Positions 18,931 through 33,141 of a stretch of DNA of 64,000 bases are shown one piece after another (position 1 is the first letter of the stretch; each line of letters opens with the position of its first letter). The stretch is from Skermanella mucosa (lineage in GTDB: Bacteria; Pseudomonadota; Alphaproteobacteria; Azospirillales; Azospirillaceae). The notes beneath the pieces are model-generated. The model was not told where the DNA came from, searched no databases, and worked only from the letters and a program-made list of their open reading frames with translations. Both the position numbers and the translations under genes were made by a program. The DNA is taken from NCBI RefSeq assembly GCF_016765655.2, contig NZ_CP086106.1:4205001-4269000 (forward strand), read 5' to 3'.

Positions 18931-19617
18931 ATGTCATTGAATTTCCTGGTTCGGGGCAAGGTGGACAACCTGCCCCAATCCCAGAAGGATGGTGAGACGC
19001 GGGCGCTGCCCGCGATCTCACCCCCCAAGCCCCAGCGCGAACGTCTGTCGGGCGTGCCCTCCTCCGCCGAACCGAAGATGACCGACGACCTCCACGCGAT
19101 CGCGACGCTGATCGGCCAGCTGAGCGACGAGCCTCCCGGGCGCGGCGTCCCGCGGCCGAAGTTCGAGGAGGCGGCGGACCGGGACGACAACGAGGAGGAG
19201 GAGGACGGAGTCCTCGAACTTTCCGCAGACAACAGCGCGCACGAGGATCCCTTGTTCGACGAATGCCAAGCTACGCTCGCCCGCCTGGACGCGGCCAAGA
19301 ACAGCGGCGAGTCCCTGCTGTCCCAGATCGAGGCCTTCTCCGGCACGCTGGAGCGCCAGGCCGCCGAGCTTTCGATGGCCCGGGCTTCCATGGCGAAGCT
19401 GGCTTCGGACAATAGCCGGCTGGTCAACGAGAACGACCGGCTGCGCGTGATGCTGCGGTCCCTGCTGGACGCCATCGACGCCGACGCCCGGCGCAACAAC
19501 GAGAGCATCGCCGCCGCCGAGCGCCGGCTGCGCGACCTGCACCGCCCCGCGGGCGACCGCCAGGGTTCGGAACGGTCCAAGCAGCCCCCCGCCCGCGGGC
19601 TCGTCGCCGAGGGCTAG
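18931..19617 (+). CDS. hypothetical coiled-coil protein
   Basis: A 228-residue cytoplasmic protein that I do not recognise. Residues 1-80 are polar and probably disordered, with a strongly acidic patch (DRDDNEEEEDG) near 83-93. Residues about 105-205 form a long amphipathic coiled coil (ATLARLDAAKNSGESLLSQI, AAELSMARASMAKLASDNSR, LVNENDRLRVMLRSLLDAID). The tail is basic and disordered. There is no signal peptide or enzymatic motif. It is transcribed alone between the TTT operon and the convergent nsrR gene. Coiled-coil scaffold proteins of this shape are common in Azospirillum-like genomes, without known function. Confidence 0.7.
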   Translation: MSLNFLVRGKVDNLPQSQKDGETRALPAISPPKPQRERLSGVPSSAEPKMTDDLHAIATLIGQLSDEPPGRGVPRPKFEEAADRDDNEEEEDGVLELSADNSAHEDPLFDECQATLARLDAAKNSGESLLSQIEAFSGTLERQAAELSMARASMAKLASDNSRLVNENDRLRVMLRSLLDAIDADARRNNESIAAAERRLRDLHRPAGDRQGSERSKQPPARGLVAEG

Positions 19618-19764
19618 TTTTCCGGCCGGAACGGGGAATCTCCCGCTTCATGTTTTGCAAGGCGTTGGGCCACAGCCCAATCCATCGGTCCGGCTGCCCC
19701 AGGGCGGATCGACCTGGTCGGGCACCGCTCCAGCGGGGGCAAGGCAAGCGTTATCAGGATTCTT

Positions 19765-19832
19765 GCCACAGATTACGGCGATGGACAAAGATACGGACCG
19801 AATCATCTGAGGCTATCGCCGTAATCTGTGGC
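19765..19832. repeat. 68-bp inverted repeat with 18-bp perfect arms
   Basis: GCCACAGATTACGGCGAT at 19765-19782 is repeated exactly inverted at 19815-19832, with a 32-base spacer. It occupies the convergent gap between the coiled-coil gene and nsrR. The right arm is followed by GGATTTTC, so it could stop rightward transcription; it also has the size of the other dispersed palindromes. Confidence 0.75.
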
Positions 19833-19903
19833 GGATTTTCTTCATTACATGCCGGCTTCGAACAAGGCGGGCCGGATGCGGACCGACCTGATCGGGTACC
19901 GCT

Positions 19904-20356
19904 CTAGGCCCCGGCGGCCCGGTCGAGCTGGAGCAGTTCCGCGAGGCGTTCCCTGGGCTCGACGAGCTGGGCCAGCGTGTATTGGTCCAGCACGTCGAGG
20001 AACGCCTGGAGCGCCCGGCCCAGCGCCCCTTTCAGGACGCAGGCGGAGACGATCCGGCATCCGGCGGCACCGTCCGCGTCGAAGCACTGCACCAACGCCA
20101 TGTCCTGTTCCATCTTGCGCACCACCTCGCCGATCACGATCTGAGCCGCAGGCCGGGCGAGCCGCAGGCCGCCGTTGCGGCCGCGGACGGTTTCGACGAA
20201 GCCCATCAGGCCGAGCTGGTGGACCACCTTCAGCAGGTGGTTGTTGGATATGCCGTAGTGGTCGGAAATCTGCTTGATGGTGACCAGCTCATCCTTCCGA
20301 ACCCCCAGATAGATCAGGACCCTGAGGGAATAGTCGGTATAGGTGGTCAGGCGCAT
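19904..20356 (-). CDS. nsrR: NsrR-type Rrf2 transcriptional regulator
   Basis: A 150-residue Rrf2-family repressor. The winged helix opens MRLTTYTDYSLRVLIYLGV and includes IKQISDHYGISNNHLLKVVHQL and the wing RGRNGGLRLARP. Three cysteines at 91, 100 and 106 (QCFDADGAAGCRIVSAC) fit the cluster-binding pattern of NsrR, which holds an Fe-S cluster destroyed by nitric oxide. R-L-T-T-Y-T-D-Y-S-L-R is closer to NsrR than to IscR. The adjacent hemerythrin gene is a typical NsrR target (YtfE/DnrN-like). An AT-rich element just upstream (20379-20402) may be its own site. Confidence 0.88.
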   Translation of the reverse strand: MRLTTYTDYSLRVLIYLGVRKDELVTIKQISDHYGISNNHLLKVVHQLGLMGFVETVRGRNGGLRLARPAAQIVIGEVVRKMEQDMALVQCFDADGAAGCRIVSACVLKGALGRALQAFLDVLDQYTLAQLVEPRERLAELLQLDRAAGA

Positions 20357-31386: not shown

Positions 31387-33141
31387 ATGTTCTCCGGAAT
31401 GAGCATAAGGCGAAAGATCCTCCTGATCGTCGGTGTTGGCCTGGTCGGATTGCTGACGGTCGCCGCCGCCGCCCTGGGCACCCTGAGGAGTCAGATGTTC
31501 GCGGACCGGCAGGTCCAGACGCGCCAGCTGGTGGAGGTCGCCGTCGCGCAGATCGACCATCATGCCAAGCTCGCCGCCGCCGGGTCCATGACGCAGGATG
31601 CCGCCAAGGCGGCGGCCCTGGCCGGCATCAGCGCCCTGCGCTATGCGGACGGGGAGTATTTCTTCGTCCTCGACCCCTCCGGCACCGTCCTCGCGCACGG
31701 CACCAGCCCCCAGCTGGTCGGCAGGAACCTGCGGGACACCAAGGACGCCAACGGGTTCGCTTTCGTCGGCGAGATGACCCGGCGCGCCATCGCCGAGGGG
31801 TCGGCCACCGTCCGCTATGTCTGGCCGAAGGCGGGATCGACGGAGCCGCAGCCGAAGATCGGCTATGCCGGCCACTACAAGCCCTGGGGCTGGGTCGTCG
31901 GCTCGGGCCTCTACGTGGACGACGCCGAGGCCGCCTTCCTCCGGATCGGCCTTGAACTGGGAGCGGTCTGCCTCGCCGTCCTGGTCGTCCAGGGACTGAT
32001 CGCGGCGGCCCTCGCCCGCGCCATCGTGCGCCCGATCCCGGTCATGCAGAACTCGATCGCCGCGGCGAGGACCGGCGACCTGTCACGGGCGGTCGGCATC
32101 GACTCCGGCGACGAGATCGGCGCCATGGCCCAGGACTTCAACCACCTGCTGGACAGCCTGAAGGACAGCTTGGGGCAGGTCAGCGAGGCCAGCGGCTCCG
32201 TCTCCGCGGCATCGGTGGAGCTCACCGCCTCAGCCGAGGAGATGAGCCGGAACGCGGAGACCATGAACGGCCACGCCGACCAGATCAACAGCGCCGTGGT
32301 CGGCGTGGTCGGCGCCGTCGGCGACCTGACCTCGATCGCCGAGGAACTGGCGACCAGCGCCGACGGCGTGGCGAGCGCGTCGGAGGAGATGACGGCGTCG
32401 ATCCGGGAGGTGGCGCGCCATGCCGCCGCCAGCTCCGACGTCGCCCACAAGGCCTCTTCCGCAGCGGACCAGGCGCGCGAGACGTTGCGGGGCGCCGAGC
32501 AGGCGATCCGGTCGGCGGTCGACAATATCCGCCAGCTCTCCCAGAACAGCACGGAGATCGGCGAGGTGATCCAGGTGATCTCCGACATCGCCGAGCAGAC
32601 CAACCTGCTGGCGCTGAACGCCACGATCGAGGCGGCGCGGGCCGGCGAGGCCGGAAAGGGTTTCGCCGTCGTCGCGACCGAGGTCAAGAACCTGGCGACC
32701 CAGAGCGCCCGGGCCGCCGAGCAGATCGCCCACCGGATCACCGCGACCCAGGAACAGACCGAGCGGTCTGTCACGTCCATCGACCAGGTCGCCGACGCCA
32801 TGGCGAAGGTTTCCGGAGCGATCGGCGCGATCCACGACGTGATTTCCCAGATCGACCGGATCGCCGGCTCGATCGCGGCCGAGGTGGATCAGCAGAGCGC
32901 CACCACCAGCGAGATCGGGCGCAATGTCGGGCAGGTCGCGACCTCGGCCAAGGCGGTCGCCGCCGACACCAGCCAGACGGCGATGGAAGCCCAGCTGGTC
33001 AGCGAGGCGGTCCGCACGATGGTCTCCATCGCGCAGGGCACCGCGGCCGGCGCCACCGAGACGTCGAGCGCCGCCGCGGAACTCAGCCGGCTGGCGCACC
33101 AGCTCGACCAGCTCGTCGGGCGCTACAAGCTGAGCGCCTGA
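31387..33141 (+). CDS. methyl-accepting chemotaxis protein with Cache sensor
   Basis: A 584-residue chemoreceptor from ATG 31387. Its first membrane helix ([20 protein letters not shown]) is followed by a periplasmic single-Cache domain with [16 protein letters not shown] and [20 protein letters not shown]. The second helix near residues 190-212 leads to a HAMP linker ([15 protein letters not shown]). The cytoplasmic signalling hairpin tip is [32 protein letters not shown], and the flanking helices carry methylation-type Glu/Gln. It reports ligand binding to CheA/CheW. The Cache_2-type ligand is often a small organic acid. The gene is monocistronic. Confidence 0.92.

Follow-up and report, generated by a model that had tools for sequence, protein, structure and literature searches.

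The palindrome at positions 19765-19832 of the window (the whole stretch of DNA that was analysed, 64,000 nt) belongs to a dispersed family, hereafter IR-A, and is probably a gene-less, non-autonomous derivative of an element carrying a GxxExxY gene; judged from its sequence, it would have spread by some mechanism in which the nuclease may act in trans. Of the two readings put forward in an earlier note on this region, that of a mobile palindrome is supported by 22 dispersed copies in the host genome, by a sister species (G002) in which the site of the surrounding mosaic is empty and by arms built like those of GxxExxY elements, whereas that of a bidirectional terminator is weak. The wider pattern detected round GxxExxY and PF05635 genes (see below) is a more interesting result than the palindrome itself.

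In the window, IR-A is composed of two 18-bp arms (GCCACAGATTACGGCGAT) that pair with zero mismatches and are separated by a 32-base spacer, 68 bp overall, which confirms the arms and spacing originally described. A pattern search tolerating up to 3 mismatches returned these two arms and no third match in the 64-kb window, against a mean of 0.05 matches in 100 shuffles, none of which reached 2. RNA folding of 96 nt round the palindrome gave -43.3 kcal/mol (z -8.5) for the + strand and -37.7 kcal/mol (z -6.9) for the - strand, with 0 of 200 shuffles folding equally well on either strand. Each arm is further organized as three C...GAT units with spacings of 9 and 10, the third unit extending beyond the exact repeat, and no such triple arose when the left arm was shuffled (200000 mononucleotide shuffles). 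Elsewhere in the window there is one C...GAT triple, at 32569, where the sequence looks coding to the eye. The arms, units and flanking genes are as follows:

19765-19782, + strand, left arm of IR-A, exact, 18 bp
19767-19773, + strand, left-arm unit 1, CACAGAT
19776-19782, + strand, left-arm unit 2, CGGCGAT, 9 bp from unit 1
19786-19792, + strand, left-arm unit 3, CAAAGAT, 10 bp from unit 2 and beyond the exact 18-bp arm
19805-19811, - strand, right-arm unit 3, CTCAGAT, matching the left arm in unit type and spacing but with other letters
19815-19821, - strand, right-arm unit 2, CGGCGAT
19824-19830, - strand, right-arm unit 1, CACAGAT
19815-19832, - strand, right arm of IR-A, exact, 18 bp
18931-19617, + strand, convergent flanking gene called "coiled-coil" in the earlier note, no NCBIfam match
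19904-20356, - strand, convergent flanking gene for an Rrf2-family regulator, NsrR-like by NCBIfam

The two neighbours are thus convergent, as had been reported. For the second one, previously labelled nsrR, the assignment to the Rrf2 family stands but that to NsrR specifically is less secure: the Rrf2 superfamily is the sole model above its cut-off, the top-scoring model being NsrR (148.5 bits, under a cut-off of 182) followed by RirA (142.7, cut-off 193). NsrR nevertheless remains the likely name. Comparison with Rfam gave nothing at gathering score for positions 19500-20000 of the window, where three sub-threshold matches were seen, and no match for the IR-A place L009.

The gap had been described as having no other feature, which proved wrong since it also contains a mosaic of dispersed repeats and a duplicated CTAG:

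19614-19617, no strand, left copy of CTAG, containing the stop codon of the + strand gene
19618-19903, no strand, inserted mosaic of 286 bp that holds the palindrome, absent in G002
19662-19736, no strand, separate dispersed repeat of the same gap, many matches in G000, G002 and G003
19733-19764, no strand, left flank found in many IR-A copies, with at least 15 of the 22 aligning
19833-19872, no strand, right flank common to 11-16 of the 22 copies past its first bases, with ATTTTCTTC adjoining the stem
19904-19907, no strand, right copy of CTAG, containing the stop codon (CTA) of the - strand gene

In the sister species G002, the site is empty and the stop codons of the convergent pair overlap in a single CTAG, read as TAG forward and as CTA in reverse. 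Because this empty site spans the 286 bp, it is the mosaic and not the palindrome alone that is missing there; the CTAG duplication sits at the ends of the mosaic and not at those of the palindrome. Since CTAG was duplicated, each convergent gene has retained its stop, and the insertion was probably harmless to both. Besides the palindrome with its flanks, the mosaic includes the repeat at 19662-19736 and an end formed by ACCGCTCTA. The insertion is also present in G003, in which it is longer (470 bp).

The host genome (G000, 7.84 Mb), within which the window lies, was searched for copies of the arms as the earlier note had suggested, and 22 clear dispersed copies were found. Its genus is very likely Skermanella, since in G004, a genome of the same genus, locus L139 agrees with L150 of Skermanella stibiiresistens at every base over 3339 bp. 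With up to 3 mismatches allowed, the arm alone matched 52 times (27 + 25) and its reversed-pattern control twice, and an 86-base query gave 48 matches corresponding to 22 clear places (L009-L030) and 6 weaker ones. Many of the clear places match twice, the second time on the opposite strand, and all family figures given here rest on these 22, the 6 weaker ones being left out. They agree with MITEs in being dispersed copies that have terminal inverted repeats and no gene. Outside of the palindrome, four copies (L025-L028) have little or nothing in common with the others, L028 having been aligned over 24 bp beyond the right arm. A second palindrome occurs shortly downstream in L015, L022 and L023 as well as in L021, where it is represented by its first arm, and L029 and L030 have retained a single arm. 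One copy, L024 (C1:493210-493521), is interrupted by an insert of ca. 240 bp that has inverted ends of its own.

The connection of IR-A with GxxExxY genes runs through a second type of palindrome, IR-B. G000 has two PF13366 genes, both of which belong to TIGR04256 and have inverted arrays of units on either side. A degenerate pattern of the IR-B arm matched 30 places of this genome (17 + 13) and its reversed control none on either strand (0 + 0). The PF13366 gene at C1:5794537 has on its left an arm (C1:5794484, CACAGATGAACGCAGATGGACACAGAT) that matches, letter for letter, those found at C1:579693, C1:2121467 and C1:5827117, where the corresponding palindromes (L064, L065 and L067) are too short to hold a gene. 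Two further palindromes are hybrids: that of C1:4898253/4898309 has one IR-B arm and one IR-A arm, and that of C1:5821456 combines an IR-B left arm with a right arm that by eye is IR-A-like. The chain formed by GxxExxY arms identical to IR-B arms, by the IR-B/IR-A hybrids and by IR-A would tie the window copy to the GxxExxY class, if indirectly, the link being indirect because unit 2 (CGGCGAT in IR-A, CGCAGAT in GxxExxY arms) and one spacing (9 versus 10) differ. When the window copy is compared with this class, it has inverted arrays of ca. 10-bp units as ends, it lacks a gene between the arms, which enclose the 32-base spacer, and its continuity with the arms of a real gene in the same genome passes through IR-B and the hybrids.

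A transcription terminator or RNA-processing hairpin, selected for between convergent genes, is an unlikely explanation of IR-A, even though several observations point in that direction. The hairpin is highly stable on both strands, ATTTTCTTC follows the stem on the + strand, and a simple scan of a 601-bp region predicted a terminator site at 19816-19834 on the + strand (2 sites in the region for 0.2 in shuffles). Moreover, a simple gene caller, built on a codon model and trained on the window, placed 16 of the 22 IR-A copies between convergent genes, 5 between tandem and 1 between divergent genes, for 10 convergent pairs among the 58 of the window, the gap of the palindrome itself being counted (p 5e-6). 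The 20 IR-B places gave 11 convergent, 7 tandem and 1 divergent pairs with 1 not callable, but these places are not independent, four lying in gaps that also have an IR-A copy, some being the two ends of one element, and L066 being an arm of a GxxExxY element. A convergent preference need not mean termination, since a similar orientation bias is reported for REPs, which are placed mostly at 3' ends, in convergent or unidirectional gaps, in the portion of PMC3733652 available. The predicted site at 19816-19834 corresponds to a small hairpin of 8 pairs inside the right arm and not to the 18-bp stem, and the - strand has no terminator-like site in the 601-bp region, so the stem with a T tract on each strand that defines a two-way intrinsic terminator is not found. 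Among the four copies L025-L028, tails are A-rich in L025 and L026 and consist of no more than mixed pyrimidines in L027 and L028, and the sister species G002 lacks the palindrome.

Arm pairing argues in the same direction. It was tried for 19 copies (all but L024, L029 and L030), of which L028 failed and 18 were parsed: 6 are wholly Watson-Crick, 2 depart from it by just a G-T pair and 10 are mismatched, including L027 in which a one-base insertion shifts the register. The commonest departure from Watson-Crick pairing affects position 10, between units 1 and 2, in 10 of the 18 copies; Watson-Crick compensation occurs there in L026 only, L025 and L027 having a G-T pair with both sides changed. 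The letters of the units seem better kept than the pairing, which in this small number of copies would fit binding sites more than an RNA stem, and the uncompensated mismatches, together with the variable tails and the absence of a - strand site, leave the earlier proposal of a bidirectional terminator weak.

Another explanation would have the palindrome carried passively within a larger, MITE-like mosaic that has AGAGCGGT...ACCGCTCT as its ends and inserts at CTAG, the arms themselves being functionless. This is rather improbable but accounts for several features: the window insertion is bounded by CTAG twice and has ACCGCTCTA at its right end, TAGAGCGGT or ACCGCTCTA is found within 260 bp of 6 of the 22 IR-A copies for 0 of 44 controls, and the flanks beyond the arms are common to many copies. 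Such a mosaic does not explain the 16 copies without those ends, nor L025-L028, in which little or nothing but the palindrome is common, and the IR-A/IR-B hybrids show that arms recombine as units. MITEs and the alphaproteobacterial intergenic mosaic elements (RIME-like) do resemble the present case by their inverted ends, their lack of a gene and the CTAG duplication round the mosaic; here, however, the duplication is at the ends of the mosaic rather than of the palindrome, and no parent IS was identified. An element of the REP/REPIN type moved by a RAYT transposase is very improbable. IR-A is a short, dispersed palindrome with a preference in gene orientation and lies mainly 3' of genes, as described for published REPs, but the CGTC families have stems of 8-9, loops of 4-5 and a terminal CGTC tag (PMC3733652, in part), in contrast to the 68 bp, 18-bp stem and 32-base spacer of IR-A. 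The candidate partner also differs, being a PD-(D/E)XK protein here and a tyrosine transposase for REPs.

The derivation of IR-A from a GxxExxY element, which we favour, draws on the arrays that surround such genes in general. Among 31 PF13366 loci from the order and the host genome, many of which are one locus in related species, inverted flanks reach a score of 30 or more in 23, for 1 of 93 shifted controls. A multi-phylum sample was then taken as the best 80 of at least 549 confirmed loci, hence not at random, of which 75 were usable: inverted flanks scored at least 30 in 53 and at least 40 in 41 of these. At the same thresholds, 1 and 0 of 316 shifted controls qualified, as did 20 and 7 of 300 pairs made up of left and right ends from different loci, the mismatched pairs reaching 20 because motifs are common to loci. 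For the 53 of 75 loci, Fisher tests returned 2e-46 against shifted and 4e-30 against mismatched controls, values for which several non-independent controls were used per locus. A period of 10 bp was found in 48% of 155 arms for 1% of 432 controls, and one of 9 bp in 25% of arms for 4% of controls. The letters of the units vary by element (CACAGAT, CACGGAT, CACGAAT, AACGGAT, CACGAAA and others), at least 2 C.CDGAT units per arm being present in 33 of the 53 loci. GxxExxY genes (TIGR04256/PF13366) thus often have inverted arrays of units ca. 10 bp apart, many of the C.C.GAT type, as in the window copy, which differs from them in being gene-less and in unit 2 and one spacing. The occurrence of inverted periodic arrays round most of the sampled GxxExxY genes suggests that these form the core of a small mobile element. 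In six loci (L165, L175, L179, L201, L210 and L220), the predicted N-termini of GxxExxY proteins (MNTD, MDTD, MDTN etc.) fall by eye within the array, an arm of which may in some elements provide the start codon.

The distribution of arrays and genes was compared across 82 genomes of the order with one unit pattern, which matched in 32 of them and for which the reversed control was 0 in every genome. PF13366 was detected in 11 of the 12 genomes with at least 8 array matches versus 28 of the 70 others (p 0.001), and in 14 of the 15 with at least 2 matches versus 25 of the remaining 67 (p 8e-5), these p values being rough given related genomes and overlapping matches. One genome, G081, is an exception with 24 array matches and no PF13366 match. 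Among the matches listed for G007, the starts of at least 7 inward-facing pairs are separated by 82-134 bp, and the PF13366 gene is enclosed by one pair whose starts are 429 bp from each other. At L143, a GxxExxY element precedes a stretch that shares its arms but has no gene and, overall, gene-less copies with the same arms outnumber GxxExxY genes in the genomes examined.

Many of the GxxExxY genes of the order occupy one locus in related species, a situation that reflects presence or absence and not recent jumping. In a related genus, 7 of 45 genomes have the L124 element at its site; at the same site in 11 other genomes, some have no array and L268 has a half site, the flanks being too diverged for the ends to be placed. 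In L124 (G006) and L125 (G012), which correspond to the same site with flanks 94-96% identical, the GxxExxY arms are ACAAAGA-like in one and CACAGAG-like in the other, as if one element had replaced another.

The GxxExxY protein itself is predicted to adopt a PD-(D/E)XK nuclease fold, an assignment that is well supported. In 58 sequences from the 80 loci, D69, K81 and E30 are invariant and E79 is nearly so. The model has a mean pLDDT of 95.6 and its four Foldseek matches at E <=0.001 are all chains of 4ic1 (SSO0001), a Cas4 nuclease. Holliday-junction resolvases, an alkaline exonuclease and another Cas4 come next with weaker E values. When the PDB was searched by sequence, just two matches were obtained, with E values of 0.43 and 0.53. 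No nuclease homologue with a known role in transposition was found, and no function for GxxExxY turned up; the genes span many phyla. Within the portions available of the literature found, GxxExxY receives a passing mention only, PF13366 also figures in PMC9756366, and no description of a link between GxxExxY and repeats was found in open-licence PMC literature, which is weak evidence of absence.

As to how IR-A may have arisen, full-length members of the class would carry the GxxExxY gene between inverted unit arrays and short palindromes would result from the loss of this gene. The units, spaced by about one helical turn, would be putative sites for the nuclease or for a partner. The nuclease might cut or process paired arms in the form of a DNA cruciform or hairpin, a processing by which copies could move or be copied, possibly in trans. 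The event seen in the window may have moved either the palindrome on its own or the larger mosaic carrying it.

More tentatively, GxxExxY proteins may be the nucleases that serve a hitherto undescribed class of minimal mobile elements present in many phyla, in which the inverted arrays of ca. 10-bp units would be read by the protein, gene-less palindromes would be the more numerous, non-autonomous derivatives, and four-helix-bundle (IVS-type) genes with 7-bp arrays would be a parallel case. If true, many unnamed intergenic palindromes of the CACAGAT type would be explained. For the parallel case, 30 of 80 genomes were chosen, 23 of which carry PF05635, for a total of 30 loci (L280-L309). Inverted flanks scored at least 30 in 23 of the 30 loci, for none of 120 shifted controls and 1 of 120 mismatched ones, and a period of 7 was found in 62% of the 60 arms for 2% of 180 controls. 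These arrays agree with the IVS of C. burnetii, for which the available part of PMC4990558 describes tandem heptamers ahead of the S23p ORF and complementary ends cleaved by RNase III, and the 7-bp PF05635 arrays would link rRNA intervening sequences to the same plan. The 23S rRNA IVS (S23p/PF05635) is, in that partial account, likewise a small selfish element with complementary ends round a small ORF; it differs by a period of 7 instead of 10, by its protein and by its location in rRNA genes, whereas the window palindrome sits between protein genes. PF05635 was also considered as a parent of IR-A in the host and set aside as it had no match in G000, an absence that is not proven since the control genomes also gave no matches.

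Finally, group II introns (Rfam RF00029/RF02005) were detected in or beside IR-B palindromes at 4 of 6 loci, with none in L088 and L009:

L021, 1669-1743, group II intron match (Rfam)
L076, 1560-1780, group II intron match (Rfam)
L083, 1612-1686, group II intron match (Rfam)
L232 (G002), 2371-2445, group II intron match (Rfam)

The last of these loci lies in a region of G002 (C1:5410767-5436261; L232 and L235) in which, relative to G000, the two flanks of a GxxExxY element are found ca. 24 kb apart and on opposite strands. The break of this rearrangement is inside the right arm, and a group II intron domain adjoins one side.
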